Assembly (NCBI GenBank): GCA_030710605.1
Contig: CP092880.1
Span: 2,274,862 to 2,338,861 of the forward strand
Direction of reading: 5' to 3'
Source of the DNA: Cordylochernes scorpioides
Taxonomy: Eukaryota > Arthropoda > Arachnida > Pseudoscorpiones > Chernetidae
DNA: 64,000 bases
A program made the translations under genes and the position numbers. Below are positions 5,690-62,623 of the stretch, piece by piece; the first letter of the stretch is position 1; each line of letters starts with the position of its first letter. The notes beneath the pieces were generated by a model. It saw only the letters and a program-made list of their open reading frames with translations, was not told the DNA's origin and ran no database searches.

Positions 5690-5762
5690 TAATGATCCAA
5701 GAGAAATACACTTAACTGGAGTTAAAAGGATTTATAGATATCTGAAGGGAACAAGAGATAAC

Positions 5763-6484: not shown

Positions 6485-6489
6485 TTTAT

Positions 6490-14176: not shown

Positions 14177-14250
14177 ATATTCTATAATCCAAATTGTACC
14201 TTATCAGGTATGTTAGGACTCCTAGCAGGGTCACCTTAAGCTGTGTTATA

Positions 14251-14455: not shown

Positions 14456-14550
14456 AAGTGGCGGAGATCAGCTGGGTACCTAAAGAAGAAGAACGCTCTA
14501 TTAGAAGAAGCAGAAGATTACAAGGACTTACCCCCGACAACACAGCGACG

Positions 14551-15720
14551 ATGAACAACAGAAGCGAGGCGACCACTCAGGTGAGTCCACTCTTTTGTCA
14601 GAATGTGGTGCGGAACCCTTCCATGTTCTCTGGTGAGATCAGCGAAGACCCCCAAGCCTGGCTGAAAGGTTATGAGAGAGTGGCAAGACATAACCATTGG
14701 GACGATTCGCTCAGTCTGGCTAACGTGTACTTTTATCTACACGGTACCGCTCAACGGTGGTACGAAAATAACGAGGAAAATATCCCATCGTGGGAGATAT
14801 TTAAAGACCAACTAGGATCCGTATTTGGGAAGAAAGATAACCTGCGGCGTCAAGCCGAGCAAAAGCTAAAGGTGCGAGCTCAAACGAGGGGCGAAAGCAC
14901 TGAATTTTATATCCAAGATGTTTTGCGACTCTGCAGGGAAGTAGATGCACAGATGCCAGAAGAAGAGAGACTATCTCATCTGATGAAGGGAGTAGCAGAG
15001 GAAGTCTACCGGTATCTTCTGCCGAGAGACATAGCGACGACGGATCAGTTTATCGCAGAGTGTCGTCGCGTTGTGGCGCTCCAAGGACGACGAGTGACAG
15101 CCTCAAAATTCGAGCGCTTGCCCAATGTTACCTCGCTCGGTGACCTGGGGGACGTGACGGATCTACAGTCTCTGATAAGACAGATCGTTAGAGAAGAAGT
15201 GCAGCGGGCCCTAGCACCGCCACGGGAAGAACCAAGAATCTCCTCCCTTGAGGAAATAGTGAAGGAGGAAGTCGACAAAGTCCTCGCTCCCATGTCGGGG
15301 ATAAATACCTTCCCAATGGAATCGGCGGCGAGGTCAGCACCACGGAACTATAGAAAGAACACCTGGTATGCACCTAAGGTCGAAGCAAGTGGCTCAAGAG
15401 TCGAAGTACGGGACACTAATGAGTGGAGGACCCCAGACGGCACGCCCGTATGCTTCCACTGTGGACGGCCCGGCCACGTTGTCCGCTATTGCCGCGACAG
15501 GAGGAGGTTACTTGATGAGAGAAGAGACGAAATGTACCAAGATCGGGCCAGGACAATGACGAACTCCGGACGCAACAATAACTCAAACGACGCTGATCAA
15601 AGGGTCAACACCAGACGTTATCGCAGCCCCTCCCCTTCTCCTAGACGCGGAAGTTCCCCTGGTCGCAGTGCTACAAGACGAGCCAGCCAGTCTCCTCGGC
15701 GTTTACAATCGGAAAACTAA
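14551..15720 (+). CDS. gypsy Gag (capsid-nucleocapsid)
   Basis: The first ATG at 14551 (MNNRSEATTQ) gives 389 residues; the frame is open further upstream to a GTG in the primer-binding site. The N-terminal half is a Ty3-type capsid (PSMFSGEISEDPQAWLKGYE, WYENNEENIPSWEIFKDQL). A CCHC knuckle CFHCGRPGHVVRYC starts near residue 301. The C terminus is an Arg/Ser-rich tail (RRYRSPSPSPRRGSSPGRS). Gag ends in TAA directly after GGAAAAC, and the pol frame is open in -1 across this stop, so -1 frameshifting is plausible. No frameshift or premature stop is seen. Confidence 0.92.
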   Translation: MNNRSEATTQVSPLFCQNVVRNPSMFSGEISEDPQAWLKGYERVARHNHWDDSLSLANVYFYLHGTAQRWYENNEENIPSWEIFKDQLGSVFGKKDNLRRQAEQKLKVRAQTRGESTEFYIQDVLRLCREVDAQMPEEERLSHLMKGVAEEVYRYLLPRDIATTDQFIAECRRVVALQGRRVTASKFERLPNVTSLGDLGDVTDLQSLIRQIVREEVQRALAPPREEPRISSLEEIVKEEVDKVLAPMSGINTFPMESAARSAPRNYRKNTWYAPKVEASGSRVEVRDTNEWRTPDGTPVCFHCGRPGHVVRYCRDRRRLLDERRDEMYQDRARTMTNSGRNNNSNDADQRVNTRRYRSPSPSPRRGSSPGRSATRRASQSPRRLQSEN

Positions 15721-15791
15721 GAGCCGCGCCCTCAAATGGAGGTGAGGCCGCTGCACAACCTATAATTCCTCCCCTGTCGACAGTCGTGAAA

Positions 15792-18700: not shown

Positions 18701-19250
18701 GCCATATGTCATCTTTGCATACAACACGGCCCAACAAGGAAGTACCAGATTTTCTCCTTTCTTTTTGGTTCATGGTCGCGAGGCCGAGACCCTCTTTGAT
18801 GTCCTGCTGCCTTACGAAGACGAAACATCGGATCATGACTTTGGAGATCAGATGGTAACCAAGGCAGAAGAAGCACGGCAGCTCGCTCGGATACACATTT
18901 TGAGAGCCCAGGAGAATAACAAGTACCATTACGACCAGGTGCATCGATCTGTTGAGTACCGTGTTGGGGACCTCGTCTGGGTGTTCACCCCTGTTCGAAA
19001 GACAGGGTTGTCCGAGAAATTACTAAAGAAATACTTCGGGCCGTATAAGATAACGAGGAAGGTGTCGGAAGTGAATTATGAAGTGGAAGCTCTGGAACAA
19101 AGTTCAAGACGGAGGAGACGCAGCCAGAAGGACGTCGTCCATGTTCTCCGGATGAAGCCCTACAGAGATCCTGGCCAACAGCTGGTGACCGGAGACTACA
19201 ATAGCTGGGACAGCGAGGATGCTGTCGACATCCTGGAGGGAGGGCTGTGA
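15792..19250 (+). CDS. gypsy Pol (protease, RT, RNase H, integrase)
   Basis: From the ATG at 15792 the product is 1152 residues, and the frame is open upstream into gag in -1. In order: protease ALVDSGASYSVIS with D20; reverse transcriptase with VVLVKKKDGTWRFCVDFRRL, MPFGLCNAPATF and catalytic YLDD at 440-443; RNase H with HTDASSYG (D589) and TTERECLAVIWAI; integrase HHCC finger near 778-815 (FHDVPTAGHLGF, HCKECQRRK); catalytic D849, D909 and E945 with the canonical 35-residue D-E spacing (TDRGRAF, LTERLN); and a GPY/F module near 1081 (KYFGPYKI). All key residues are present, so the copy could encode active enzymes. The usual PQTNG is PQTNR. Confidence 0.95.
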   Translation: MTNNYIDIKVEGDTIRALVDSGASYSVISERFRVELKKTMFAETDVVLKVADDKVVKSKGRCTLKLEVNGHPENFEFVVLENCSHDVILGWDFFKATNAVIDCGLGELQLDDLPDLDAEGRDDGVYAIQDFVIPGRSSQRISVVNRSLVGIVNMEVTCSKELFIRKDVILPSSLIEFEEGIGKIWITNGGLQPQMIPKGMNLGRMCDIETEHVCLLSVEPESFSRERREDDHSNYLLSLINPDLPKKKKEDLMGLLLSFKGVFLPTMKNANKVQNRVKHRIPTGDHPPIKQLPYRVSKREREIMQKEVDTMLERKVIQPSESPWSAPVVLVKKKDGTWRFCVDFRRLNHITKKDVYPLPRIDDVLDLLSSARYYSTMDLKTGYWQVEVDERDREKTAFVTPDGLYEFMVMPFGLCNAPATFERMMDNVLMGLKWNICLCYLDDIVVYSDTFEEHLERLSKVLSCLQQAGLTINPDKCLFGSTRIKILGHVVDKDGIQPDSEKVEAIKKFPVPKSVCDIQSYLGLCSYYRRFIKNFSKIAAPLQILLKKDQKFIWTQEQKDSFESLKKALMQKPVLGHFKESAITKLHTDASSYGLGTVLVQIQENQENPIAYASRTLSKAEKNYSTTERECLAVIWAIGKFRPYLYGRPFEVVSDHHSLCWLAGLKDPSGRLARWALRLQDFDATITYKSGVKHKDADCLSRYPLPESPALTSLTLVREQQNLDPDITKISNALNQGEGAERFEMKNGLLYKRNFDPLGRRLLLVIPKCMRPDILKEFHDVPTAGHLGFARTYDRIRKRYFWPGLYNSVRCYVAHCKECQRRKGENKLPAGKLIPIQPPSFPFQKIGMDLLGRFPLSDKGNRWIIVCTDYLTKYAIAKALPSGTAAEIATFILEEVILKHGAPREIITDRGRAFMSQMVKEVTSRCKISHLFTTAYHPQTNRLTERLNKTLGDMLSMYVDAEQRDWDSVLPYVIFAYNTAQQGSTRFSPFFLVHGREAETLFDVLLPYEDETSDHDFGDQMVTKAEEARQLARIHILRAQENNKYHYDQVHRSVEYRVGDLVWVFTPVRKTGLSEKLLKKYFGPYKITRKVSEVNYEVEALEQSSRRRRRSQKDVVHVLRMKPYRDPGQQLVTGDYNSWDSEDAVDILEGGL

Positions 19251-19467: not shown

Positions 19468-19770
19468 ATATTCTATAATCCAAATTGTACCTTATCAGGT
19501 ATGTTAGGACTCCTAGCAGGGTCACCTTAAGCTGTGTTATGCATCCAACAGGAAGGTACAAATTGTTTGTTCTCCAAAGGAGAGGCTACAAAGGGTACTC
19601 CATGTTAAGAGCAGTTCCAAACTAGAAGCAAAGTCCCACTGAATGGTACTTCCAGGTTTCCAGACAGGCGCATCCTTCTTTCACCTCTTAGGGAAAAGGC
19701 AACAACAACACAATTCCTATAGAAAGTGGGAATGCCACACTATGTAAAATAATACCAAAGTGAAATTGTG

Positions 19771-20056: not shown

Positions 20057-20228
20057 CTTAGGTGGGATCCTCCAGTTCTTGTTTATTTTTGTTTTGGCTA
20101 CTGTTTCTATTTCTTTAAAAGTGAAAGAGTATCAAGGGGATATCTAAATTTAAAAAAAGTCCTGATGGTGTAACTAAAAGTTGCTGATGGCTTGTACTAT
20201 CTGTTGGAATAACAATTAAAATTGATAT

Positions 20229-20442
20229 AAGGTAATAAGACCAAATCCAAATAAATAAATAGTGTGTGACGTTTTGGTAACAGCATTGTTACCATCATCA
20301 GACAAAAGTACTGAGTATAAAGTACTCAGTACAAAAGTACTACCTCATTCAGTACTTTTGTCTGAAGATGGTAACAACGCTGTTACCGAAACGTCACACA
20401 CTATTTATTCATTTGGATTTGGTCTTATTACCTTGTGTTTAA
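20229..20442. repeat. Palindromic repeat, family D, copy 3 with spacer
   Basis: The arms AAGGTAATAAGACCAAATCC ... and inverse enclose GTACTGAGTATAAAGTACTC and a second AGTACTTTTGTCTGAAGATG. Both inner arms carry GGTAACAACGCTGTTACC-like hairpins adjacent to GAAACGTC. Confidence 0.85.
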
Positions 20443-20547
20443 CCACTAAAGTTTATTTTTAATTATTCTAGAGTTTTCAGTTGGTTAAATTAAAGAGGTG
20501 TTAGACTGTATTCCCAGTGTGGTAGGACTAACAGTGGTGGTGTACAG

Positions 20548-26330: not shown

Positions 26331-26633
26331 TATCCTCCCCGGCAAAATTTCCATCTACAGTTAAATATATTGATGAGACAAAGGCAGGGATGTAGGGTTC
26401 AGATTAATTATTCCATTAAACATTTTATTCTGGTGAGCCACGGCCACTAGAGTCCAAATTCCTGGTTCAGTCCAGAGCAGTCGAGATGTCCTAGGTTCCA
26501 TGGGGCAGGTTGTAGTAGGTGATATTGCTGCTAGACATTCAATCTCGTTGTGACATATTATGAGTGGAAGTTCTAACTGATTGTTATCTCTGACATGCTG
26601 ACACATAAACAGTGGTCAACAGGTTAAAACAGG

Positions 26634-27428
26634 AAGTAGGTGAATAGCGTGGTAAGTTTCTTTATTCCGCACAACAAGCTTTCGGGCATCAGCTGCCCTT
26701 CATCAGGTACAATGCGTGATTAGAAAGAGTGAACCAATATTTATATGCAGTGAATTAGCATAAAAGAAAACTAACTAAGATCTACTTAAAAATTAAGAAA
26801 TTTACATATGGAACTAAAAAAGTACGAAATTTCTAAAAAATAAACTAAAAATCTGTATAAGACGAATTAAAGGTAAAACACGAAAAAAGGATGGAAAGAC
26901 GAGAAAACGTAAGTATCTAGGCATAATAAAGGAAAGGAGCAAAATAGGATGTCAGTGGCCAAGTTTAGAAAAAACAGTATATTGAGGGGAGAGATCTATT
27001 TTTCTGTTAAAACTAGGGATAGAGCTGGACACAAGAGCCTCAAGGACCAAACGTTGATATTTGTTTTTAACATCACTATATACCGGGATCGTGTTGCGTA
27101 AATTAAAAGAGTGGTTAAATTCGTGGCTGTGTTGATATAGTAGTGACTTACGATCATGAGAACGGATGTTACGGTCGTGTTCTAGGACTCTAGTGGCAAT
27201 GGTTCGGCCAGTTTCTCCGACATAGGATTGTGGGCAGTCATCACACGGAATTCTGTAGATGGCATTGGAGAAAGATTGGGGGCTGGGTTTAAAGGAGCTT
27301 TTTGTGAGGGGATGGCGTAAAGATGTGCCTAGGGAAGGTGATTTTTTATAAAACGTACGGATGCCAAATTTACGTAGATAGAAACCAATGTCGGAATTCG
27401 TAATAGAAAACGGAAGAACGCAAACATC
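26634..27428 (-). mobile_element. Penelope-like element, 5'-truncated, left arm
   Basis: On the - strand, from the junction near 27428, the frame reads VCVLPFSITNSDIGFYLRKF, then SFSNAIYRIPCDDCPQSYVG and ETGRTIATRVLEHDRN, which is the start of a GIY-YIG endonuclease domain of the Penelope type (YRI...YVG, CDDC). It continues to a stop near 27020 and an AT-rich 3' region, closing with CTGATGAAGGGCAGC and CCCGAAAGC near the 3' end. Reverse transcriptase is absent. It forms an inverted repeat with the next entry. Confidence 0.85.
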
Positions 27429-28027
27429 CTCGGAGAAACTGGCCGAACCATTGCCACTCGAGTCCTAGAACACGACCGTAACATCCGTTCTCATGATCGT
27501 AAGTCACTACTATATCAACACAGCCACGAATTTAACCACTCTTTTAATTTACGCAACACGATCCCGGTATATAGTGATGTTAAAAACAAATATCAACGTT
27601 TGGTCCTTGAGGCTCTTGTGTCCAGCTCTATCCCTAGTTTTAACAGAAAAATAGATCTCTCCCCTCAATATACTGTTTTTTCTAAACTTGGCCACTGACA
27701 TCCTATTTTGCTCCTTTCCTTTATTATGCCTAGATACTTACGTTTTCTCGTCTTTCCATCCTTTTTTCGTGTTTTACCTTTAATTCGTCTTATACAGATT
27801 TTTAGTTTATTTTTTAGAAATTTCGTACTTTTTTAGTTCCATATGTAAATTTCTTAATTTTTAAGTAGATCTTAGTTAGTTTTCTTTTATGCTAATTCAC
27901 TGCATATAAATATTGGTTCACTCTTTCTAATCACGCATTGTACCTGATGAAGGGCAGCTGATGCCCGAAAGCTTGTTGTGCGGAATAAAGAAACTTACCA
28001 CGCTATTCACCTACTTCCTGTTTTAAT
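27429..28027 (+). mobile_element. Penelope-like element, 5'-truncated, right arm
   Basis: The + strand encodes the C-terminal GIY-YIG part, GETGRTIATRVLEHDRN, HDRKSLLYQHSHEFNHSFNL, RLVLEALVSSSIPSFNRKID and LSPQYTVFSKLGH, stopping at 27700. The 3' region is almost identical to the inverse of the left arm, including ACCTGATGAAGGGCAGCTGA, TGCCCGAAAGCTTG and the end TTCCTGTTTTAA. It starts later in the domain than the left arm, so the two are separate truncations joined 5' to 5'. Confidence 0.85.
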
Positions 28028-28272
28028 CTATCAAGCGTGGCTATACTATGTCTGATCCCAACAGGTCAAATATAATATTGTAGCGAAGAAATATAATTTA
28101 TATTTATTATTTAATTTGATTATTCAATGAAAATATTGGAAACAGATTTATTATTTGTAAAATCATCATTTAGTTGCCTAGCTTGCTTGCTCGATATTCT
28201 CTAGCTGTAGATAGTTGGGGTTGATTTGTTAATATTTGTCGACTATACATGTCATTTGCTTCCATTTCCCTC

Positions 28273-29619: not shown

Positions 29620-29875
29620 CCTGTTGTTGTTGTTTCTTATCCCCTTGTGTAAAGATTACACAAACTCCATAAGTCCATGCTCCTCGAGCTGTTTGATGAT
29701 AAGCAGCGGCCTCTCCCAAAGGTCCTGTTTAGTGCATCTTGTGCAAGCCAAAATGTGTTCTGGAGTTGCAGGTGCCAAGCTACATTTTGGGCAAGTGGGG
29801 TAGATTTTGTTGTTATTTTCTATCTTCAATGGCTTGAGATGGCCTGTTCTAAATCTTGTTAGTGTTGTTATATAT
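29620..29875 (-). mobile_element. LINE 3' end, family C, copy 2
   Basis: The - strand encodes TRFRTGHLKPLKIENNNKIY, CPKCSLAPATPEHILACTRC and TKQDLWERPLLIIKQLEEHG, then the tail ATAAGAAACAACAACAACAG. The protein segment is in frame to the end. It is 5' truncated. Confidence 0.82.
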
Positions 29876-30022
29876 ATATAAATAGTGTGTGATGTTTTGG
29901 TTAACACAGTTGTTACCATCATCAGACAAAATACTGAATGCTGATGGTAACAATTCTGTTACCTAAATGTCACACACTATTTATTTACTTGGATATCGTT
30001 TGTTGTTACCTTATGTTTCTAA
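29876..30022. repeat. Palindromic repeat, family D, truncated copy
   Basis: AATAGTGTGTGATGTTTTGG ... with spacer and the inverse right arm CACACACTATTTATTTACTT. The left outer arm is lost at the LINE junction. Confidence 0.7.
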
Positions 30023-30232
30023 TCTATAATCCACCTTGTATATCTTATCATATATTAGAATCCCTACTGTGCCATTGTAAGTCCAGGATTGGGGTCACTC
30101 TATGTTGAGATGGTGGAACCTGGTTTCTTCCACATTGAGGCTTTTTTACAACAAATAAATTTTTTCCTCGATGTTTGTAAGATGGAAGTGTTTTGTTGTT
30201 TGGAATGCTTGGAAGCTTTTTGTAGATACATT

Positions 30233-30582: not shown

Positions 30583-30649
30583 ACATTTCTCCTTTAATTA
30601 GATCATCTTTCCTTTCCTCAATCACATTTTCAATGTCTTCATAAACACA

Positions 30650-30812
30650 AGGTAAAAAGACCAAATCCAAATAACATAAATAGTGTGTAACATTTCGGTA
30701 ACTGCATTGTTACCCATCATCAGACAAAAGTACTGAATGCTGTTAGGAACAACTCTATTACTGAAAGATTACACTATTTATTTATTTGGATTTGGTTTTA
30801 TGGTAATGTGTT
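30650..30812. repeat. Palindromic repeat, family D, old copy
   Basis: Arms AAGGTAAAAAGACCAAATCC ... and a decayed inverse, with CATCATCAGACAAAAGTACT between. Mismatches show age. Confidence 0.7.
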
Positions 30813-30883
30813 TCTAATCTATAATGCAAATTGTGCCTTATTATCATTTTTTCTATCTAATTGAATTTAGAAAATTGCAATGT

Positions 30884-31637: not shown

Positions 31638-31675
31638 CACTATAGTGGCTATTTTTGTATTGATGCATCTTGCAC

Positions 31676-31870
31676 CATACTAATGAGGACCAACAGCCCG
31701 AAATGCGTACGTGGTTAGCTTTTATTGATTAATCAAAATGGGTATTTGGTCAATTCTGGAATAATCAAAAATCAACGATTAGTTGATATTTATTCCAATA
31801 GATGGAGCAAGCCAACTTTTAGTTGAATGATCAGGAGATGCTTTTTAAAAAAATGTATTCACCTGATACA
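31676..31870 (+). repeat. Degenerate hammerhead-bearing repeat (family G)
   Basis: ACTAATGAGGACCAACAGCC, then CGAAATGCGTACGTGG, is a decayed hammerhead. The downstream body (TCAACGATTAGTTGATATTT, ATCAGGAGATGC) matches the 60.24 kb copy. Confidence 0.65.
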
Positions 31871-38333: not shown

Positions 38334-38900
38334 CAGTAGAACCTCCCTGTAGCGGACACCTCTCCACAAAGGACAGTTTTCAAAACAAGGTAATAAGGCC
38401 AAATAAATAAATAGTGTGACAATTTTTTTTTTTTTTGACAATTAAAAATAACTTTATTGACCAACTGTCAATTGTCTACACTGACAAAGAGTCAGAATTC
38501 AACAAGAGAAGAAACACAAAAGTTCAGATTCAATTAAATTAAAAGTATGCACACAGACAAAGCCCTACGAAGGGACGCCTGGAAATTTGTCAAGAACCAA
38601 GATCTGCCTGGAGTGTAATCAGGTTCTTGCAGATCACAGGATCCACATCCCCAGCAAGTTGGTAACAACGCTGTTACCGAAACGTCACACACTATTTATT
38701 TATTTGGATTTGGTCTTATTACCTTGTTTTATAATCTATGATCCAAATTGTGCTTTATCAAGGACAGTTTTCATTTGCAAAATTACCAGTTTTACAATTA
38801 AGCAACTCTCTGATATGAGGACACCTCTCCCTAAAAGACACTTTGCCTCTGCAACTAGGTGTTGTCCTTTACAGGGAGGTAGTTCTACTGTATTTGGAAT
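38334..38900. repeat. Family B MITE and family D palindrome, interleaved, with a polyA retroposon
   Basis: Outer layer: family B MITE, left end TACAGTAGAACCTCCCTGTA (38334) and right end GAGGTAGTTCTACTGTA (38892). Inside it a family D palindrome (38391-38735) is itself interrupted by a retroposon (38419-38660, - strand) with an AATAAAG signal and a polyA tail. Three layers of insertion can be read from the borders. Confidence 0.8.
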
Positions 38901-39095: not shown

Positions 39096-39482
39096 CACAC
39101 ACACACACACACACATATTTATATTTTTTTACATTTGTGAACAATTTTTGAAAAGATAAATGGTGCTTGAATTATGTTGTAATGGCGAATTCTCTTTTAA
39201 CAGAATTTAACCTAATTTGCCTAGTCCCCATTTACATTTTTTGTGTTCTTTGATTCTTAGTTATTAGTAAAGGATGGTAGTTTTCAAGGAAATGGTTATG
39301 CTCTTGATGATGGTTTTAAAAGAAGTTTTCATGTTACACGATGCTCTCTAATTGGAACTTTTTCCTTATTTTCTTCTCATATTTTTGCATAGCTCTGATT
39401 ATACACCAGATGCACATGTTAGCCAGTGCTTGTTATCATAAGAGTAGAATTGTCCTAAGTGCAAACACATTCTTTTTTAAAA

Positions 39483-39725
39483 CAAGGTAATAAGACCAAA
39501 TAAATAAATAGTGTGTGATGTTTCGGTAACAGCGTTGTTACCATCTTCAGACAAAAGTATTGAATGATAAATTTTACCACAGCATGTTTTAATTCATTAC
39601 TTCAGTACTTTTGTCTGAAGATGGTAACAATGCTATTACCGAAACGTCACACACTATTTATTTATTTGGATTTGGTCTTATTACCTTGTTTTATAATCTA
39701 TAATCCAAATTGTACCTTATCAATT
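39483..39725. repeat. Palindromic repeat, family D, with full tail
   Basis: Arms AAGGTAATAAGACCAAATAA ... and inverse; the right inner arm is TTTTGTCTGAAGATGGTAAC, then ATTACCGAAACGTCACACAC. The tail TAATCCAAATTGTACCTTAT matches the sequence duplicated around the gypsy element. Confidence 0.85.
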
Positions 39726-40236
39726 AAACCTTTTATTTTCTTCAAGTTATATAGCTAGTTCTGTGTTTTTGTTTGTTTTTCGATATTAGAAGCTCTGTAA
39801 ATATGGAAATGCAGTTTAACATGACAAAAAGTTCAATTTTGCTGAAATGGTAATCTATAAAATAATACACTGTAGTCATATTGAAATATATTTTTTTCAG
39901 TCTGTCTGTTACTATATATACAGTAAAACCTATCTTAGAAGTTACCTGCCCAGTGTTTACCTGTCTTAGGAGTATCAAATTTTAGTAGAAACTGTTTGTT
40001 TTCCCCATTAATTTAGTTTTCTTAAACATCTCTTCTTTCTTATCTCAAAGCCATGATAATCATGGTGGGTAGTTAGCGACTGCTTTTACTGTAAGCGCAC
40101 CACATGTCTACACATGTGAAAAGCAGATGTGTAAACATCTGACCCTGTCTAACGTGTTTATGTCTACATTTTCTTTAAGCCCATAAAATCTAAATGAGTT
40201 ACATATCCTACAGTAAATAATTTAATTTGCATATGT

Positions 40237-41276: not shown

Positions 41277-41605
41277 ATATATATATTAAAAATAAAGAAG
41301 GCATTTCCTGACCACAAGTACATGCCTTCTTTATTTTTAATATCGACACCTGATCCACTTATCTTTTATTTTTTTTCTATTGTTTTTTCATACATATATA
41401 TATATTAAAAATAAAGAAGGCATCTCCTGACCACGAGCACATGTGCTTTTTAGATGGCAGAGCGCCATCTAGTGGAGCAAAAATAAACTAAACGTTTATT
41501 TAGCTTGCTCCGTGATATTTGGCCAACCCAATTTCTTGATAAATCAAGAAAAGCCATCCACGAACGCGTTTTGCGCTGTTGGCGCTCGTCATTGTTTTTT
41601 CATAT
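41277..41605 (-). repeat. Hammerhead-bearing repeat family G, inverted and partly duplicated
   Basis: On the - strand: ATGACGAGCGCCAACAGCGC, then AAAACGCGTTCGTGG (hammerhead with C3 and G12 lost), the body TTAGTTTATTTTTGCTCC, and the end TCAGGAGATGCCTTCTTTAT. A second copy of the last part (41284-41342) forms a hairpin (AAGAAGGCATTTCCTGACCA and inverse). Confidence 0.7.
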
Positions 41606-43636: not shown

Positions 43637-46600
43637 TACATAGTAGAACCTCTATGAGAGGAAACCTCGTGCTATAGGACATCTCTCTACAAAGGACAGT
43701 TTACATCACCAATACAGTAGAACATCTATGAGAGGAAAACTCATGCTAGAGGACACCTCTCTACAAAGGACAGTTTACATCACCAATACAGTAGAACCTC
43801 TATGAGAGGAAACCTCGTGCTAGAGGACACCTCTCTACAAAGGACAGTTTACATCACCAATACAGTAGAACATCTATGAGAGGAAACCTCGTGCTAGAGG
43901 ACACCTCTCTACAAAGGACAGTTTACATCACCAATACAGTAGAACATCTATGAGAGGAAACCTCGTGCTAGAGAACACCTCTCTACAAAGGACAGTTTAC
44001 ATCACCAATACAGTAGAACCTCTATGAGAGGAAACCTCGTGCTAGAGGACACCTCTCTACAAAGGACAGTTTACATCACCAATACAGTAGAACCTCTATG
44101 AGAGGAAACCTCGTGCTAGAGGACACCTCTCTACAAAGGACAGCTTTCATCACCAATACAGTAGAACATCTATGAGAGGAAACCTCGTACTAGAGGACAT
44201 CTCTCTACAAAGGACAGTTTACATCACCAATACAGTAGAACATCTATGAGAGGACACTCCCACTAGAGGACATCTCTCTACAAAGGACAGTTTACATCAC
44301 CAATACAGTAGAACATCTATGAGAGGAAACCTCGTGCTAGAGGACATCTCTCTACAAAGGACAGTTTACATCACCAATACAGTAGAACATCTATGAGAGG
44401 ACACTCCCACTAGAGGACATCTCTCTACAAAGGACAGTTTACATCACCAATACAGTAGAACATCTATGAGAGGAAACCTCGTGCTAGAGGAAATCTCTCT
44501 ACAAAGGACAGTTTTCATCACCAATACTGTAGGATATCTATGAGAGGACACTCCCACTAGAGGACACCTCTCTACAAAGGACAGCTTTCATCACCAATAC
44601 AGTAGAACATCTATGAGAGGAAACCTCGTGCTAGAGGACATCTCTCTACAAAGGACAGTTTTCATCACCAATACAGTAGAACATCTATGAGAGGAAAACT
44701 CGTGTTAGAGGACATCTCTCTATAAAAGACAGTTTTCATCACCAATACAGTAGAACATCTATGAGAGGACACTCCCACTAGAGGACATCTCTCTACAAAG
44801 GACAGTTTTCATCACCAATACAGTAGAACATCTATGAGAGGAAACCTCGTGCTAGAGGACATCTCTCTACAAAGGACAGTTTTCATCACCAATACAGTAG
44901 AACATCTATGAGAGGAAACCTCGTGCTAGAGGACATCTCTCTACAAAGGACAGTTTTCATCACCAATACAGTAGAACATCTATGAGAGGAAACCTCGTGC
45001 TAGAGGACACCTCTCTATAAAGGACAGTTTTCATCACCAATACAGTAGAACCTCTATGAGAGGACACTCCCACTAGAGGACATCTCTCTACAAAGGACAG
45101 TTTTCATCACCAATACAGTAGAACCTCTATGAGAGGAAAACTCGTGTTAGAGGACATCTCTCTACAAAGGACAGTTTTCATCACCAATACAGTAGAACCT
45201 TTATGAGAGGACACTCCCACTAGAGGACATCTCTCTACAAAGGACAGTTTTCATCACCAATACAGTAGAACATCTATGAGAGGACACTCCCACTAGAGGA
45301 CATCTCTCTACAAAGGACAGTTTTCATCACCAATACAGTAGAACCTCTATGAGAGGAAAACTCGTGTTAGAGGACATCTCTCTACAAAGGACAGTTTTCA
45401 TCAACAATACAGTAGAACCTTTATGAGAGGACACTCCCACTAGAGGACATCTCTCTACAAAGGACAGTTTTCATCACCAATACAGTAGAACCTCTATGAG
45501 AGGAAAACTCGTGTTAGAGGACATCTCTCTACAAAGGACAGTTTTCATCACCAATACAGTAGAACATCTATGAAAGGACACTCCCACTAGAGGACATCTC
45601 TCTACAAAGGACAGTTTTCATCACCAATACAGTAGAACCTCTATGAGAGGAAAACTCGTACTAGAGGACATCTCTCTACAAAGGACAGTTTTTTTCACCA
45701 ATACAGTAGAACCTCCATGTGAGGACACTCACGCTAGAGGACATCTCTCTACAAAGGACAGTTTTCATCACCAATACAGTAGAACATCTATGAAAGGACA
45801 CCCCCACTAGAGGACATCTCTCTACAAAGGACAGTTTTCATCACCAATACAGTAGAACCTCTATGAGAGGAAAACTCGTGTTAGAGGACATCTCTCTACA
45901 AAGGACAGTTTTCATCACCAATACAGTAGAACATCTATTAAAGGACATTCCCACTAGAGGACATCTCTCTACAAAGGACAGTTTACATCACCAATACAGT
46001 AGAACATCTATGAGAGGACACTCCCACTAGAGGACATCTCTCTACAAAGGACAGTTTTCATCACCAATACAGTAGAACCTCTATGAGAGGAAAACTCGTG
46101 TTAGAGGACATCTCTCTACAAAGGACAGTTTTCATCACCAATACAGTAGAACATCTATGAAAGGACACTCCCACTAGAGGACATCTCTCTACAAAGGACA
46201 GTTTTCATCACCAATACAGTAGAACATCTATGAGAGGAAAACTCATGCTAGAGGACACCTCTCTACAAAGGACAGTTTACATCACCAATACAGTAGAACC
46301 TCTATGAGAGGAAACCTCGTGCTAGAGGACACCTCTCTACAAAGGACAGTTTACATCACCAATACAGTAGAACATCTATGAGAGGAAACCTCGTGCTAGA
46401 GGACACCTCTCTACAAAGGACAGTTTACATCACCAATACAGTAGAACATCTATGAGAGGAAACCTCGTGCTAGAGAACACCTCTCTACAAAGGACAGTTT
46501 ACATCACCAATACAGTAGAACCTCTATGAGAGGAAACCTCGTGCTAGAGGACACCTCTCTACAAAGGACAGTTTACATCACCAATACAGTAGAACCTCTA

Positions 46601-49600
46601 TGAGAGGAAACCTCGTGCTAGAGGACACCTCTCTACAAAGGACAGCTTTCATCACCAATACAGTAGAACATCTATGAGAGGAAACCTCGTACTAGAGGAC
46701 ATCTCTCTACAAAGGACAGTTTACATCACCAATACAGTAGAACATCTATGAGAGGACACTCCCACTAGAGGACATCTCTCTACAAAGGACAGTTTACATC
46801 ACCAATACAGTAGAACATCTATGAGAGGAAACCTCGTGCTAGAGGACATCTCTCTACAAAGGACAGTTTACATCACCAATACAGTAGAACATCTATGAGA
46901 GGACACTCCCACTAGAGGACATCTCTCTACAAAGGACAGTTTACATCACCAATACAGTAGAACATCTATGAGAGGAAACCTCGTGCTAGAGGAAATCTCT
47001 CTACAAAGGACAGTTTTCATCACCAATACTGTAGGATATCTATGAGAGGACACTCCCACTAGAGGACACCTCTCTACAAAGGACAGCTTTCATCACCAAT
47101 ACAGTAGAACATCTATGAGAGGAAACCTCGTGCTAGAGGACATCTCTCTACAAAGGACAGTTTTCATCACCAATACAGTAGAACATCTATGAGAGGAAAA
47201 CTCGTGTTAGAGGACATCTCTCTATAAAAGACAGTTTTCATCACCAATACAGTAGAACATCTATGAGAGGAAACCTCGTGCTAGAGGACATCTCTCTACA
47301 AAGGACAGTTTTCATCACCAATACAGTAGAACATCTATGAGAGGAAACCTCGTGCTAGAGGACATCTCTCTACAAAGGACAGTTTTCATCACCAATACAG
47401 TAGAACATCTATGAGAGGAAACCTCGTGCTAGAGGACACCTCTCTATAAAGGACAGTTTTCATCACCAATACAGTAGAACCTCTATGAGAGGACACTCCC
47501 ACTAGAGGACATCTCTCTACAAAGGACAGTTTTCATCACCAATACAGTAGAACCTCTATGAGAGGAAAACTCGTGTTAGAGGACATCTCTCTACAAAGGA
47601 CAGTTTTCATCACCAATACAGTAGAACCTTTATGAGAGGACACTCCCACTAGAGGACATCTCTCTACAAAGGACAGTTTTCATCACCAATACAGTAGAAC
47701 ATCTATGAGAGGACACTCCCACTAGAGGACATCTCTCTACAAAGGACAGTTTTCATCACCAATACAGTAGAACCTCTATGAGAGGAAAACTCGTGTTAGA
47801 GGACATCTCTCTACAAAGGACAGTTTTCATCAACAATACAGTAGAACCTTTATGAGAGGACACTCCCACTAGAGGACATCTCTCTACAAAGGACAGTTTT
47901 CATCACCAATACAGTAGAACCTCTATGAGAGGAAAACTCGTGTTAGAGGACATCTCTCTACAAAGGACAGTTTTCATCACCAATACAGTAGAACATCTAT
48001 GAAAGGACACTCCCACTAGAGGACATCTCTCTACAAAGGACAGTTTTCATCACCAATACAGTAGAACCTCTATGAGAGGAAAACTCGTACTAGAGGACAT
48101 CTCTCTACAAAGGACAGTTTTTTTCACCAATACAGTAGAACCTCCATGTGAGGACACTCACGCTAGAGGACATCTCTCTACAAAGGACAGTTTTCATCAC
48201 CAATACAGTAGAACATCTATGAAAGGACACCCCCACTAGAGGACATCTCTCTACAAAGGACAGTTTTCATCACCAATACAGTAGAACCTCTATGAGAGGA
48301 AAACTCGTGTTAGAGGACATCTCTCTACAAAGGACAGTTTTCATCACCAATACAGTAGAACATCTATTAAAGGACATTCCCACTAGAGGACATCTCTCTA
48401 CAAAGGACAGTTTACATCACCAATACAGTAGAACATCTATGAGAGGACACTCCCACTAGAGGACATCTCTCTACAAAGGACAGTTTTCATCACCAATACA
48501 GTAGAACCTCTATGAGAGGAAAACTCGTGTTAGAGGACATCTCTCTACAAAGGACAGTTTTCATCACCAATACAGTAGAACATCTATGAAAGGACACTCC
48601 CACTAGAGGACATCTCTCTACAAAGGACAGTTTTCATCACCAATACAGTAGAACATCTATGAGAGGAAACCTCGTGCTAGAGGACATCTCTCTACAAAGG
48701 ACAGTTTTCATCACCAATACAGTAGAACCTTTATGAGAGGAAAACTCGTGCTAGAGGACATCTCTCTACAAAGGACAGTTTCCATCACCAATACAGTAGA
48801 ACCTCTATGAGAGGAAACCTCGTGTTAGAGGACATCTCTCTACAAAGGACAGTTTTCATCACCAATACAGTAGAACATCTATGAGAGGACACTCCCACTA
48901 GAGGACATCTCTCTACAAAGGACAGTTTTCATCACCAATACAGTAGAACCTCTATGAAAGGAAAACTCGTGTTAGAGGACATCTCTCTACAAAGGACAGT
49001 TTTCATCACCAATACAGTAGAACATCTATGAGAGGAAACCTCGTGCTAGAGGACATCTCTCTACAAAGGACAGTTTTCATCACCAATACAGTAGAACATC
49101 TATGAGAGGAAACCTCGTGCTAGAGGACATCTCTCTACAAAGGACAGTTTTCATCACCAATACAGTAGAACATCTATGAGAGGAAAACTCGTGTTAGAGG
49201 ACATCTCTCTATAAAGGACAGTTTTCATCACCAATACAGTAGAACATCTATGAGAGGACACTCCCACTAGAGGACATCTCTCTACAAAGGACAGTTTTCA
49301 TCACCAATACAGTAGAACCTCTATGAGAGGAAAACTCGTGCTAGAGGACACCTCTCTACAAAGGACAGCTTTCATCACCAATACAGTAGAACATCTATGA
49401 GAGGAAACCTCGTGCTAGAGGAAATCTCTCTACAAAGGACAGTTTTCATCACCAATACTGTAGGATATCTATGAGAGGACACTCCCACTAGAGGACACCT
49501 CTCTACAAAGGACAGCTTTCATCACCAATACAGTAGAACATCTATGAGAGGAAACCTCGTGCTAGAGGACATCTCTCTACAAAGGACAGTTTTCATCACC

Positions 49601-52600
49601 AATACAGTAGAACATCTATGAGAGGAAAACTCGTGTTAGAGGACATCTCTCTATAAAAGACAGTTTTCATCACCAATACAGTAGAACATCTATGAGAGGA
49701 CACTCCCACTAGAGGACATCTCTCTACAAAGGACAGTTTTCATCACCAATACAGTAGAACATCTATGAGAGGAAACCTCGTGCTAGAGGACATCTCTCTA
49801 CAAAGGACAGTTTTCATCACCAATACAGTAGAACATCTATGAGAGGAAACCTCGTGCTAGAGGACATCTCTCTACAAAGGACAGTTTTCATCACCAATAC
49901 AGTAGAACATCTATGAGAGGAAACCTCGTGCTAGAGGACACCTCTCTATAAAGGACAGTTTTCATCACCAATACAGTAGAACCTCTATGAGAGGACACTC
50001 CCACTAGAGGACATCTCTCTACAAAGGACAGTTTTCATCACCAATACAGTAGAACCTCTATGAGAGGAAAACTCGTGTTAGAGGACATCTCTCTACAAAG
50101 GACAGTTTTCATCACCAATACAGTAGAACCTTTATGAGAGGACACTCCCACTAGAGGACATCTCTCTACAAAGGACAGTTTTCATCACCAATACAGTAGA
50201 ACATCTATGAGAGGACACTCCCACTAGAGGACATCTCTCTACAAAGGACAGTTTTCATCACCAATACAGTAGAACCTCTATGAGAGGAAAACTCGTGTTA
50301 GAGGACATCTCTCTACAAAGGACAGTTTTCATCAACAATACAGTAGAACCTTTATGAGAGGACACTCCCACTAGAGGACATCTCTCTACAAAGGACAGTT
50401 TTCATCACCAATACAGTAGAACCTCTATGAGAGGAAAACTCGTGTTAGAGGACATCTCTCTACAAAGGACAGTTTTCATCACCAATACAGTAGAACATCT
50501 ATGAAAGGACACTCCCACTAGAGGACATCTCTCTACAAAGGACAGTTTTCATCACCAATACAGTAGAACCTCTATGAGAGGAAAACTCGTACTAGAGGAC
50601 ATCTCTCTACAAAGGACAGTTTTTTTCACCAATACAGTAGAACCTCCATGTGAGGACACTCACGCTAGAGGACATCTCTCTACAAAGGACAGTTTTCATC
50701 ACCAATACAGTAGAACATCTATGAAAGGACACCCCCACTAGAGGACATCTCTCTACAAAGGACAGTTTTCATCACCAATACAGTAGAACCTCTATGAGAG
50801 GAAAACTCGTGTTAGAGGACATCTCTCTACAAAGGACAGTTTTCATCACCAATACAGTAGAACATCTATTAAAGGACATTCCCACTAGAGGACATCTCTC
50901 TACAAAGGACAGTTTACATCACCAATACAGTAGAACATCTATGAGAGGACACTCCCACTAGAGGACATCTCTCTACAAAGGACAGTTTTCATCACCAATA
51001 CAGTAGAACCTCTATGAGAGGAAAACTCGTGTTAGAGGACATCTCTCTACAAAGGACAGTTTTCATCACCAATACAGTAGAACATCTATGAAAGGACACT
51101 CCCACTAGAGGACATCTCTCTACAAAGGACAGTTTTCATCACCAATACAGTAGAACATCTATGAGAGGAAAACTCATGCTAGAGGACACCTCTCTACAAA
51201 GGACAGTTTACATCACCAATACAGTAGAACCTCTATGAGAGGAAACCTCGTGCTAGAGGACACCTCTCTACAAAGGACAGTTTACATCACCAATACAGTA
51301 GAACATCTATGAGAGGAAACCTCGTGCTAGAGGACACCTCTCTACAAAGGACAGTTTACATCACCAATACAGTAGAACATCTATGAGAGGAAACCTCGTG
51401 CTAGAGAACACCTCTCTACAAAGGACAGTTTACATCACCAATACAGTAGAACCTCTATGAGAGGAAACCTCGTGCTAGAGGACACCTCTCTACAAAGGAC
51501 AGTTTACATCACCAATACAGTAGAACCTCTATGAGAGGAAACCTCGTGCTAGAGGACACCTCTCTACAAAGGACAGCTTTCATCACCAATACAGTAGAAC
51601 ATCTATGAGAGGAAACCTCGTACTAGAGGACATCTCTCTACAAAGGACAGTTTACATCACCAATACAGTAGAACATCTATGAGAGGACACTCCCACTAGA
51701 GGACATCTCTCTACAAAGGACAGTTTACATCACCAATACAGTAGAACATCTATGAGAGGAAACCTCGTGCTAGAGGACATCTCTCTACAAAGGACAGTTT
51801 ACATCACCAATACAGTAGAACATCTATGAGAGGACACTCCCACTAGAGGACATCTCTCTACAAAGGACAGTTTACATCACCAATACAGTAGAACATCTAT
51901 GAGAGGAAACCTCGTGCTAGAGGAAATCTCTCTACAAAGGACAGTTTTCATCACCAATACTGTAGGATATCTATGAGAGGACACTCCCACTAGAGGACAC
52001 CTCTCTACAAAGGACAGCTTTCATCACCAATACAGTAGAACATCTATGAGAGGAAACCTCGTGCTAGAGGACATCTCTCTACAAAGGACAGTTTTCATCA
52101 CCAATACAGTAGAACATCTATGAGAGGAAAACTCGTGTTAGAGGACATCTCTCTATAAAAGACAGTTTTCATCACCAATACAGTAGAACATCTATGAGAG
52201 GAAACCTCGTGCTAGAGGACATCTCTCTACAAAGGACAGTTTTCATCACCAATACAGTAGAACATCTATGAGAGGAAACCTCGTGCTAGAGGACATCTCT
52301 CTACAAAGGACAGCTTTCATCACCAATACAGTAGAACATCTATGAGAGGAAACCTCGTGCTAGAGGACACCTCTCTATAAAGGACAGTTTTCATCACCAA
52401 TACAGTAGAACCTCTATGAGAGGACACTCCCACTAGAGGACATCTCTCTACAAAGGACAGTTTTCATCACCAATACAGTAGAACCTCTATGAGAGGAAAA
52501 CTCGTGTTAGAGGACATCTCTCTACAAAGGACAGTTTTCATCACCAATACAGTAGAACCTTTATGAGAGGACACTCCCACTAGAGGACATCTCTCTACAA

Positions 52601-55317
52601 AGGACAGTTTTCATCACCAATACAGTAGAACATCTATGAGAGGAAACCTCGTGCTAGAGGACACCTCTCTATAAAGGACAGTTTTCATCACCAATACAGT
52701 AGAACCTCTATGAGAGGACACTCCCACTAGAGGACATCTCTCTACAAAGGACAGTTTTCATCACCAATACAGTAGAACCTCTATGAGAGGAAAACTCGTG
52801 TTAGAGGACATCTCTCTACAAAGGACAGTTTTCATCACCAATACAGTAGAACCTTTATGAGAGGACACTCCCACTAGAGGACATCTCTCTACAAAGGACA
52901 GTTTTCATCACCAATACAGTAGAACATCTATGAGAGGACACTCCCACTAGAGGACATCTCTCTACAAAGGACAGTTTTCATCACCAATACAGTAGAACCT
53001 CTATGAGAGGAAAACTCGTGTTAGAGGACATCTCTCTACAAAGGACAGTTTTCATCAACAATACAGTAGAACCTTTATGAGAGGACACTCCCACTAGAGG
53101 ACATCTCTCTACAAAGGACAGTTTTCATCACCAATACAGTAGAACCTCTATGAGAGGAAAACTCGTGTTAGAGGACATCTCTCTACAAAGGACAGTTTTC
53201 ATCACCAATACAGTAGAACATCTATGAAAGGACACTCCCACTAGAGGACATCTCTCTACAAAGGACAGTTTTCATCACCAATACAGTAGAACCTCTATGA
53301 GAGGAAAACTCGTACTAGAGGACATCTCTCTACAAAGGACAGTTTTTTTCACCAATACAGTAGAACCTCCATGTGAGGACACTCACGCTAGAGGACATCT
53401 CTCTACAAAGGACAGTTTTCATCACCAATACAGTAGAACATCTATGAAAGGACACCCCCACTAGAGGACATCTCTCTACAAAGGACAGTTTTCATCACCA
53501 ATACAGTAGAACCTCTATGAGAGGAAAACTCGTGTTAGAGGACATCTCTCTACAAAGGACAGTTTTCATCACCAATACAGTAGAACATCTATTAAAGGAC
53601 ATTCCCACTAGAGGACATCTCTCTACAAAGGACAGTTTACATCACCAATACAGTAGAACATCTATGAGAGGACACTCCCACTAGAGGACATCTCTCTACA
53701 AAGGACAGTTTTCATCACCAATACAGTAGAACCTCTATGAGAGGAAAACTCGTGTTAGAGGACATCTCTCTACAAAGGACAGTTTTCATCACCAATACAG
53801 TAGAACATCTATGAAAGGACACTCCCACTAGAGGACATCTCTCTACAAAGGACAGTTTTCATCACCAATACAGTAGAACATCTATGAGAGGAAACCTCGT
53901 GCTAGAGGACATCTCTCTACAAAGGACAGTTTTCATCACCAATACAGTAGAACCTTTATGAGAGGAAAACTCGTGCTAGAGGACATCTCTCTACAAAGGA
54001 CAGTTTCCATCACCAATACAGTAGAACCTCTATGAGAGGAAACCTCGTGTTAGAGGACATCTCTCTACAAAGGACAGTTTTCATCACCAATACAGTAGAA
54101 CATCTATGAGAGGACACTCCCACTAGAGGACATCTCTCTACAAAGGACAGTTTTCATCACCAATACAGTAGAACCTCTATGAAAGGAAAACTCGTGTTAG
54201 AGGACATCTCTCTACAAAGGACAGTTTTCATCACCAATACAGTAGAACATCTATGAGAGGAAACCTCGTGCTAGAGGACATCTCTCTACAAAGGACAGTT
54301 TTCATCACCAATACAGTAGAACATCTATGAGAGGAAACCTCGTGCTAGAGGACATCTCTCTACAAAGGACAGTTTTCATCACCAATACAGTAGAACATCT
54401 ATGAGAGGAAAACTCGTGTTAGAGGACATCTCTCTATAAAGGACAGTTTTCATCACCAATACAGTAGAACATCTATGAGAGGACACTCCCACTAGAGGAC
54501 ATCTCTCTACAAAGGACAGTTTTCATCACCAATACAGTAGAACCTCTATGAGAGGAAAACTCGTGTTAGAGGACATCTCTCTACAAAGGACAGTTTTCAT
54601 CACCAATACAGTAGAACATCTATGAGAGGACACTCCCACTAGAGGACATCTCTCTACAAAGGACAGTTTTCATCACTAATACAGTAGAACATCTATGAGA
54701 GGAAACCTCGTGCTAGAGGACATCTCTCTACAAAGGACAGTTTTCATCACCAATACAGTAGAACATCTATGAGAGGAAACCTCGTGCTAGAGGACATCTC
54801 TCTACAAAGGACAGTTTACATCACCAATACAGTAGAACATCTATGAGAGGAAACCTCGTGCTAGAGGACATCTCTCTACAAAGGACAGTTTTCATCACCA
54901 ATACAGTAGAACCTCTATGAGAGGAAACCTCGTACTAGAGGACATCTCTCTACAAAGGACAGTTTTCATCACCAATACAGTAGAACATCTATGAAAGGAA
55001 AACTCGTGCTAGAGGACATCTCTCTACAAAGGACAGTTTTCATCACCAATACAGTAGAACATCTATGAGAGGAAACCTCGTACTAGAGGACATCTCTCTA
55101 CAAAGGACAGTTTACATCACCAATACAGTAGAACATCTATGAAAGGACACCCCCACTAGAGGACATCTCTCTACAAAGGACAGTTTTCATCACCAATACA
55201 GTAGAACATTCTCCATGAGAGGACACCTCCACTAGAGGACATCTCTCTACAAAGGACAGTTTGTCTCTGCAACTAGGGGTCGTCCTTTACAGTGTATTTT
55301 CACTGTATTGGCTTGTG
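43637..55317. repeat. 11.7 kb satellite array of a 73/74-bp MITE-derived monomer with higher-order structure
   Basis: About 157 copies of a unit built as ACAGTAGAACATCTATGAGA, GGAAACCTCGTGCTAGAGGA, CATCTCTCTACAAAGGACAG and TTTTCATCACCAAT. Variant units have GGACACTCCCACTAGAGG or GGAAAACTCGTGTTAGAGG. Marker variants recur at fixed spacing: ACTGTAGGATATC at about 44526, 47028, 49457 and 51959; ACCTCCATGTGAGG at 45711, 48140, 50642 and 53365. Intervals are 2429, 2502 and 2723 bases, differing by whole monomers. The right edge carries the other end of the family B MITE (TTGTCTCTGCAACTAGGGG ... CACTGTA), so the array sits inside a MITE. No coding sequence. Confidence 0.96.
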
Positions 55318-60148: not shown

Positions 60149-60692
60149 TTTCTTTTATATATACAATACAAACTTCTACTGTCCTTACTGCGATGAAAAA
60201 AATATAAATATACATATCTTTTTGGTCTCAGTGTTACAGCCTACTCCACGCTGACGAGCGCTAACAGCGCGAAACGCGTTCGTGGAGGGCTTTTCTTGAT
60301 TTATTAAGAAATTGGGTTGGCCAATTATCAGGGAACAGGTTAAATCAATGTTTAGTTGATTTATATTCCACCAGATGGCGCTCTGTTATCTAAAAAGCAC
60401 ATGTGCTCCTGTTTAGAAAATGCCTTTTTTATTTTAATATATTTATATGTAATTCTACTGTCCGAAAAGTTTATGTCCATAGTTTACTTGAAAACCATTT
60501 CTGAGATTCCACCCTTCAGTGTAGCATATAAAATCAGAATGATCCAATACAGTATTAGAGCTCTGAGAAGCAGTCTGGTAGATTAAATTGGTGAAACTGT
60601 TGGAAGGGTTCACCACTGATAAGCCAAGTCCTCCCAATATATCTTTTCATCGCAGTAAGGACAGTAGAAGTTTGTATTGTATATAAAAGAAA
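60149..60692. mobile_element. Element with 50-bp terminal inverted repeats enclosing a hammerhead-bearing repeat
   Basis: CAAACTTCTACTGTCCTTAC, then TGCGATGAAAA, at 60170-60199 is inverted at 60643-60675, and pairing extends outward through ATATACAATA and TTTCTTTT. Inside lie the hammerhead repeat (60241-60440) and GAAGGGTTCACCACTGATAA. A related right part is at 31.07 kb. Confidence 0.65.
60244..60287 (+). ncRNA. Hammerhead ribozyme, type I, all core bases conserved
   Basis: Stem I is CTCCACG (60244-60250) with CGTGGAG (60281-60287), 7 pairs. Core CTGACGA at 60251-60257; stem II GCGCT-AAC-AGCGC (60258-60270), 5 pairs; GAAA at 60271-60274; a minimal stem III A-C...G-U with loop GC; cleavage triplet GTT, predicted cut after 60280. 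Tiny stem III is the form described for Penelope-like elements and retrozymes. Older copies in this window (3301, 31676, 41605) are broken in the core. Confidence 0.85.
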
Positions 60693-61317: not shown

Positions 61318-61830
61318 AGCTCATCTTTCCCATTAAAACTAGGCGCCATCTATTGACTGTCTGATCAAAATAAAAGACTCAGGTCGGTGACAAAGCCACA
61401 ACACCAGCTTTGGAAAACTGAGAAGCGTTCACCTAGACACCATTATCTCGTTCTAATGGCCCTTATCAGTCCAAGGCGGACTTTATTCCATGAGATCCAC
61501 ACGGAATCAAATCTTCACAATCTACCAAAGAGATGTTTAGTTGGAAAAGTGGCTATAGGCCAAATTTATGGCCAAAATATACATGGAAATTTTGCTGGGT
61601 AGAGATTGATCTATAGAATAAAGGTCACCTCTCCCGTCAAAATGGACGCCAAGACTAAACGCCATCTATTGACTGTCTCGGAACACTAGCGGACTCTGTT
61701 AGGTGACAAATCCACAACACTAGTTTTGGTAAACCGAGAAGCGTCCAACTGGAGATCATTGTTTCTGCTTAATGGCCCTTGTCAATCCAGGGTGGGCTTT
61801 GATTTCGTGAGGTCGACAAGGAATCAAATG
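61318..61830 (-). repeat. Hammerhead repeat family H, two tandem copies on -
   Basis: CGCCATCTATTGACTGTCT occurs at about 61345 and 61656, giving a repeat period of about 311. Each unit has, on the - strand, a hammerhead position (CTGATAAGGGCCATTAGAAC and TTGACAAGGGCCATTAAGCA) that has decayed in the core. The + strand copies follow head to head at 61831. Confidence 0.75.
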
Positions 61831-62340
61831 AAATCAAAGCCCGCATTGCAATAACGAAGGCCATTAGCTCGAAACCAGGGTCTTCAGCTGAACGCTTCTC
61901 AGTTTACCAAAGCTGGTGTTGTGGCTTTGTCACCGACCCGAAGCGGCTATTTCTTGGCGACAGTCAATAGATGGCGTCTAGTTTTGACGTCTATTTTGAC
62001 GGGAGAGGCGATCTTTGCTTTTATAGATCTATATTCTCCCGGAAAAATTTCCATCTATATTTTGGCATAGATTTGGCATAGCCTCTTCGCCAGCTAAACA
62101 CCTTTTTGACAGATTGTGAAGATTCCATTAGGTCCCGTGTGGATCTCATGGAATAAAGTATGTCCTAGGCTGACGAGAGCCATTAGCCCGAAACCATGGT
62201 CTCTAGGTGGACGCTTCTCAGTTTGCCAAAGCTGGTGTTGTGGCTTTTGTCACCAACTCGAGGTCGTCAGTTTGCGGCGACAGTCAATAGATGGCGTCTA
62301 ATTTTGACGTCTATTTTGACAGGAGAGGCAACCTTTTGCT
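61831..62340 (+). repeat. Hammerhead repeat family H, two tandem copies on +
   Basis: GTCAATAGATGGCGTCTA occurs at 61964 and 62283 (period about 319), followed each time by TTTTGACGTCTATTTTGAC. The first unit has a decayed hammerhead (TAACGAAGGCCATTAGCTCG), the second a nearly intact one (see next entry). Confidence 0.78.
62164..62207 (+). ncRNA. Hammerhead ribozyme, type I, family H
   Basis: Stem I CCTAGG (62164-62169) with TCTAGG (62202-62207), 6 pairs including one G-U; core CTGACGA (62170-62176); stem II GAGC-CATTA-GCCC with one A-C mismatch; GAAA (62190-62193); short stem III A-C/G-T with loop CATG; triplet GTC, predicted cut after 62201. All strictly conserved core bases are present. 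Confidence 0.8.
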
Positions 62341-62623
62341 TATATATTTATAATATTTTAAAGTATAATTTTAAATTTATATTCTATTTTATTCATTATT
62401 GAAATTATCAACACATACATTTAGATAAATTTTTAAAACGTTATTGTCTTCTTTTAAATTAATATGTTATTCTTTTAAAGTTAGGTCTTAAAAACACTAT
62501 GTAACTATTGAAAATAATTGTCCTTATTTATTATCATTCACAATAATGAAGACGTAACTAAATAAATTCTATAGTAACACTGTGACATATTTCGTAAATT
62601 TTACATAAGAGTTAAAAACAAAC
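62341..62623. other. AT-rich, no gene
   Basis: No supported feature. Confidence 0.45.

Follow-up and report, generated by a model that had tools for sequence, protein, structure and literature searches.

Metazoan retrozymes are described as tandem copies in the available text of Cervera and de la Pena (2020, PMC7229834), in whose main text a word search finds none of the terms "inverted", "head-to-head" and "opposite". Penelope-like elements (PLEs) have already been proposed in print to move animal retrozymes (PMC7229834; PMC7761336; PMC8969392), and in the passages of PMC7229834 devoted to it the suspicion rests on the type I hammerheads found in both, on their tandem occurrence and on their coexistence. 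For the PLEs themselves, the accessible parts of the literature report head-to-head pLTRs with a 31-bp tail at one of them and duplications of 8-10 bp (PMC3846280); for one PLE they show that it cuts and extends both strands, favors AT-rich DNA and begins copying from a pair of neighboring internal positions, between which the tail lies (PMC11167929). In contrast to the tandem copies described for other metazoans, the retrozyme repeat analyzed here, from the pseudoscorpion Cordylochernes scorpioides, lies mostly head-to-head and has two paired end points.

The window, that is, the whole stretch of 64,000 nucleotides that was analyzed (C18:2274862-2338861), contains a copy of this repeat, and the family was surveyed in the genome of 2.62 Gb (24 contigs). 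In a self-comparison of the window the region at 61334-62345 aligns with its own reverse complement over 988 columns (77%, 740 bits), far beyond chance, and 61620-61806 and 61830-62016 are 79% complementary across 187 nt; by both measures the inverted pair claimed in an earlier, sequence-only reading of this DNA is real. The minus arm lies on the left and the plus arm on the right, with their 5' sides facing (head-to-head; Table 1). The unit is 319 nt long and is numbered from u1, the first base past the predicted hammerhead cut. The mapped arms share 35 bases because the junction sits in a self-complementary stretch of the unit. Two tandem units per arm had been proposed, and tandem repetition is indeed present, but neither arm is a full dimer (about 1.6 and 1.7-1.8 units); the period of the minus units is 316-317 rather than about 311, whereas that of the plus units, put at about 319, was measured at 319-320. 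The tandem units of the window copy (L001) are about 70-80% alike, and it is a diverged copy of the 319-nt repeat with a type I hammerhead. At its left end divergence is too high for assignment to either end point of the family. At its right end no tail is found by the tail test, whereas a looser alignment-end method gave u179, so that the tests disagree; the likeliest end of the plus arm is close to the short end point, at about u145.

Table 1. Coordinates of the head-to-head copy and of other features within the window.
Feature	Position	Strand	Remarks
Minus arm	61334-61806, mapped through 61835	-	About 1.5-1.6 units of the 319-nt repeat
Head-to-head junction	61807-61829		23 nt between the paired arms, within a self-complementary stretch of the unit
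Plus arm	61830-62345, mapped from 61801	+	About 1.6-1.8 units; weak alignment on to 62383
Hammerhead site, broken core	61438-61469	-	Row L001 1265-1005
Hammerhead site, broken core	61754-61785	-	Read from the sequence
Hammerhead site, broken core	61851-61882	+	Row L001 1494-1713
Predicted type I hammerhead, core CUGANGA/GAAA/UH intact	62170-62201	+	Row L001 1715-2030; predicted cut after GTC at 62201
Putative PLE-type head-to-head pair	39475-39730		Minimal hammerhead; short end left, tailed end right
Further similar putative PLE-type pairs	14051-14206, 20204-20449, 29874-30050, 30641-30841, 38375-38761		
Second type I hammerhead element	60225-60453		Canonical-looking; core at 60251; helix I CTCCACG/CGTGGAG
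Relatives of the second hammerhead element	41391-41591, 6484-6638, 31661-31808, 3271-3364		
Inverted repeat	26621-28029		1.4 kb, 91% identical; CTGATGA..GAAA hammerhead-like motifs (26706 minus, 27944 plus)
Satellite array	43642-55262		11.6 kb; 74-bp unit, about 158 copies
Ty3/gypsy-type retrotransposon	14440-19250		Long open reading frame
Copia-type retrotransposon fragments	3711-6251		
5S rRNA match	13740-13858		Well over the Rfam gathering score; by eye, looks like a diverged copy

Each of the four units holds a hammerhead site, in agreement with the sequence-only reading, and the core is intact in one of them, the site given there as nearly intact at 62164-62207. Within the family the type I core is intact in 49 of the 67 copies that span it (43 loci), and it is conserved in young copies: all rows displayed for the two least diverged loci, five for L008 and six for L006, keep it. 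Helix III consists of two pairs and a CAUG loop, a short form that is described for animal hammerheads in the available text of PMC7229834. The helix I pair u285/u3 covaries (A-U in 34 copies, G-C in 18) and is paired in 56 of 67 copies, against 47.0 expected; the other 11 pairs are paired about as often as expected and show no covariation, except for u286/u2 (59 against 55.6). Conservation of the core, at 0.959 against 0.914 elsewhere, lies within one s.d. and is not clearly higher. Rfam reported no hammerhead in the window, nor did its models report one even in the well-preserved L008, and the minimum-energy fold of 62146-62225 in the window is not the hammerhead form. The L008 hammerhead piece is predicted to fold with helices I and II, and the fold z-scores of the hammerhead pieces (-1.43 for L008, 0.42 for the window) are not significant against shuffles. 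The unit carries a predicted type I hammerhead, whose cleavage is likewise a prediction from the sequence.

The genome contains 1,243 exact occurrences of the 18-mer GACAGTCAATAGATGGCG, which is part of the unit, and none of its reversed control. As a sample we took the first 90 of 100 listed 18-mer places, all on contig C1, together with eight of the best BLAST matches; 24 of these 98 loci were dropped as duplicates by their flanks, leaving 66 C1 and 8 BLAST loci. The survey covers one contig and copies that retain the 18-mer, which lies at about u76-93, so that conservation measured there is partly so by construction. In the C1 sample, head-to-head is the usual arrangement of the family: 45 of 66 loci run minus-then-plus, 20 are one-armed and 1 runs plus-then-minus (tail-to-tail), and among the best BLAST loci 7 of 8 run minus-then-plus and 1 is one-armed. 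These counts do not support the earlier opinion that the layout is not the standard arrangement, and they differ from a genome in which copies are mostly single linear units. One locus that was counted as one-armed (L039) does hold a short inverted tail piece; in the other one-armed loci no clear hidden short inverted arm was detected, with L019 and L090 masked in this test and L017 equal to the 99% control value. The arms measure between 42 and 1253 nt, and their lengths vary continuously and form no dimer class; the "dimers of dimers" of the sequence-only reading are thus not supported, and a rare inverted form of that kind is disfavored.

The window also holds the second type I hammerhead element (Table 1), which, like its relatives in the window, looks single-armed, so not every hammerhead element here has the head-to-head layout. 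No Pfam domain was found in the tested open reading frames of the 1.4-kb inverted repeat. The satellite array explains a block of the window in which GC and AT skew are strong.

The outer 3' ends of the arms cluster at two approximate end points, u145 for the short ends and u176 for the long ones, which carry a tail of about 31 nt. By the alignment-end method both ends could be classed in 32 of the 52 two-armed loci, and 30 of these 32 have one short and one tailed end. A separate tail test classed 39 of 52 loci on both sides, with 34 having one end of each kind, 4 two short and 1 two long ends (pairing of unlike ends in 34/39, binomial p 2.4e-6). In the remaining 13 of 52 loci, the window copy among them, the tail test could not class both sides; with a right end without tail and an unclassed left end, the window copy alone does not show the pairing.

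The longest exact direct repeat across the ends has a mean of 9.75 bp (n = 32 loci), against 5.70 in mismatched pairs; repeats of at least 10 bp are present in 15 of 32 loci (5.4% of mismatched pairs) and of at least 12 bp in 13 of 32 (1.6%), and none of 5,000 re-pairings reached the true direct-repeat total. In 17 of 32 loci the longest direct repeat is at most 8 bp. Several of the longer repeats are TA runs, and AT-rich microsatellite targets blur many of them. The AT content is 84% in the first 10 flanking bases and 64% at 101-300. As one direct-repeat pair encloses both arms, a joint insertion of the two is most likely.

A similar layout is found in other repeats of the same genome. The repeats that we call PLE-type (Table 1) would belong to PLEs by their naming in the literature; no attached open reading frame was found. 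In the window and the fetched loci they form 21 clusters, of which 8 consist of a simple minus-plus pair, another 3 include a minus-plus step and 10 lack one. Both ends could be classed in 6 of the simple pairs, and in 5 of these one end is short and the other tailed. Many PLE-type repeats also occur in one-strand arrays. One such head-to-head pair lies in the flank of a retrozyme (L034:2570-2931), with its tailed end on the left and its short end on the right, mirroring the pairs in the window. At 14177-14206 and 19468-19497 an identical PLE-type tail is followed by an identical flank, so that the LTRs of the Ty3/gypsy-type element seem to contain a PLE-type repeat. Of 17,015 candidates for the GIY-YIG profile (PF01541), 150 were scored and 146 of these match, and all 11 neighboring pairs within 8 kb among the scored matches are minus-then-plus. 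No hammerhead was found in the 381 bases read of one GIY-YIG element (L099), and the one PLE-type repeat that was compared with the retrozyme shows no detectable sequence similarity to it. Pfam searches with open reading frames of the window (18 queries, one repeated) gave only copia and Ty3/gypsy domains and no PLE protein. An open reading frame with reverse transcriptase and GIY-YIG is absent, and only two of at least 80 aa overlap the array (81 and 86 aa). Lacking a PLE open reading frame, the 319-nt repeat is at most a passenger of PLEs.

We consider the family to be a metazoan-type non-LTR retrozyme, with a 319-nt unit and a type I hammerhead, whose insertions follow PLE geometry, and put the probability of this at about 0.7. 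The best reading is that PLE machinery copies its RNA, which is probably circular, starting from both of the cut target strands, a proposal of two-strand priming that follows from established PLE biochemistry and the anatomy of the insertions. The hammerheads would cut tandem RNA, which would then close into a circle. A PLE-type enzyme would cut the two strands of an AT-rich target some 10-15 nt apart, as the AT richness and the duplications indicate statistically, and the target 3' ends would prime reverse transcription within the RNA, near u145 and u176, the two end points that are found paired. Both cDNAs would extend toward the 5' side of the RNA, in many cases past the cut site and in some for several rounds, in keeping with the arms observed. 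They would halt at varying points and be joined head-to-head, giving the layout seen, and gap filling would leave the single target duplication that is detected statistically around both arms. The inversion, for which the sequence-only reading called for another step, would most simply be priming from both cut target strands, by analogy with PLEs.

This account draws on the 45/66 C1 and 7/8 BLAST loci that are head-to-head, with paired ends, enclosing repeats and AT-rich flanks, and on the same layout in PLE-type repeats and GIY-YIG pairs of this genome. Against it stand the 20/66 one-armed loci, the 5/39 loci with two like ends and the 13/52 that could not be classed on both sides, the 17/32 without a direct repeat of more than 8 bp, the lack of a hammerhead in the GIY-YIG piece that was read, the slight gain in similarity between arms of one locus (see below), the absence of similarity to the PLE-type repeat compared, the one-strand PLE-type arrays and the single-armed look of the second hammerhead element of the window (60251).

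With regard to the template, 38 of 80 end-classed arms run past the ribozyme cut site and 16 of 80 are longer than one unit, and several loci have two or more units within one arm. A template that ends at the hammerhead cut was rejected, as only 5 of 104 arms start within 6 nt of it (3.9 expected). Since arms pass the cut site and starts are not enriched there, the template is circular or an uncut multimer; the circular RNA intermediates invoked in the sequence-only reading thus gain indirect support as one of two forms, circular or multimeric. The alternative is that the same PLE-type insertion takes as its template a linear multimer, a transcript of a tandem array in the genome that the hammerhead leaves uncut, with no circle. 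The crossing of the cut site requires no more than an uncut template, and the accessible text of PMC11167929 reports in vitro work in which an anole PLE accepted RNA that had not been processed, the hammerhead being dispensable. On the other hand, the units of both arms are 98-100% alike within L006 and within L008, the two least diverged loci, and each of these is set apart from the other by variants common to all of its displayed units, as expected from one circle, although a homogeneous source array could give the same uniformity. A linear template is possible, and we hold it to be somewhat unlikely. Folded as a circle, the L008 unit is strongly self-paired in the model: its value of -117.5 lies below those of all 100 mononucleotide shuffles (mean -88.0, minimum -100.9). 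The other arm of the same locus is the best match in 10 of 43 two-strand loci, where about 1 is expected by chance, and the mean similarity of arms is 0.866 within and 0.829 between loci, a small gain. Both arms of a locus probably derive from one RNA, in a family in which most loci do not demonstrate this individually.

Copying by PLE machinery from both target strands also has to be weighed against routes that make the second arm in another way. In snap-back self-priming, one cDNA would prime its own second arm at a hairpin, a process that was once proposed for PLEs with palindromic junctions, with an antisense template (according to the available text of PMC3846280). Junction overlaps of at least 20 bases that are self-complementary are seen in 6 of 52 loci (L001, L023, L028, L045, L080 and L081), and snap-back may account for individual loci, among them the window copy. 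It predicts symmetric arms with the same end, whereas the arms are usually unequal, start at different places in the unit and have different outer ends; as a general cause it is disfavored by these features and improbable. Another route is LINE-type target-primed insertion with twin priming, in which the second strand would prime at a chance site of the RNA and so create an inverted left arm. This would account for the head-to-head orientation and the target duplications, but the outer end on the inverted side should then be scattered, whereas both sides are fixed and paired (34/39), and we regard twin priming as a very improbable main cause. That two separate insertions, or a later inversion or recombination, united the arms could be imagined in so dense a repeat family, and the plus-minus locus L029 looks like nested copies, but this idea has next to no credibility, disfavored as it is by the one duplication that encloses both arms, beyond all 5,000 re-pairings, and by the ratio of 45 minus-plus to 1 plus-minus loci on C1.

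For the two-strand priming by PLE machinery that we prefer, the pairing of end points suggests one enzyme dimer acting on one RNA. A more specific version is that at each insertion a dimeric PLE works on one retrozyme circle, each target end taking a different start and both polymerases rolling round it; we offer it tentatively, at somewhat less than even odds. If it is true, animal retrozymes would parasitize PLEs by double-ended rolling-circle copying, and the inserted copies would record the mechanism of PLEs. The pairing also constrains PLE integration, which the accessible text of PMC11167929 presents as a little-known process. Searches of the openly accessible journal literature found no head-to-head retrozyme insertions with paired ends, and the use of insertion anatomy as evidence for mobilization by PLEs appears to be new in the searchable literature, where an earlier mention is possible. 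For the enzyme that moves retrozymes in animals, this anatomy offers a direct test that is applicable to other animal genomes; the PLE-like end marks of the insertions hint at the copying machinery.

Compared with known systems, the classification as a retrozyme-type repeat, made in the sequence-only reading, is supported by the 319-nt unit and its core, intact in 49/67 copies. Plant LTR retrozymes share the lack of autonomy and the hammerhead and move via circular RNA, but in the available texts (PMC7229834; PMC7761336) they have type III hammerheads in LTRs, units of 600-1000 bp and 4-bp duplications. The metazoan non-LTR retrozymes are closer, being, in the available text of Cervera and de la Pena (2020, PMC7229834), the same kind of non-autonomous tandem repeat of a few hundred bases, with the same type I hammerhead that has a two-pair helix III and a tetraloop. 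The 319-nt unit falls inside their range of about 150-450 bp for tandem units, no LTR features were seen in it either, and duplications of more than 4 bp are common to both, with repeats of at least 10 bp in 15/32 loci here against 5.4% of controls. The GC content is 50.8% in the L008 unit and 44.8% in the window unit; for metazoan retrozymes PMC7229834 gives under 50% in its text and under 45% in a figure legend.

With PLEs that encode GIY-YIG the family has in common, as far as the accessible descriptions go, the head-to-head copies, a tail that may be present at one of the two 3' ends and is about 30 nt long, AT-rich targets, short duplications and type I hammerhead relatives. PLEs encode a reverse transcriptase and an endonuclease, whereas the retrozyme repeat has no coding capacity, and their hammerheads are minimal while that of the retrozyme is of canonical size; the retrozyme duplications also seem to be a little longer than those of rotifer PLEs, given as 8-10 bp in the available text of PMC3846280. 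Three marks of PLE-type insertion are found in this family, with head-to-head arms in 45/66 loci, a one-sided tail in 34/39 and an AT-rich target (84% against 64%).
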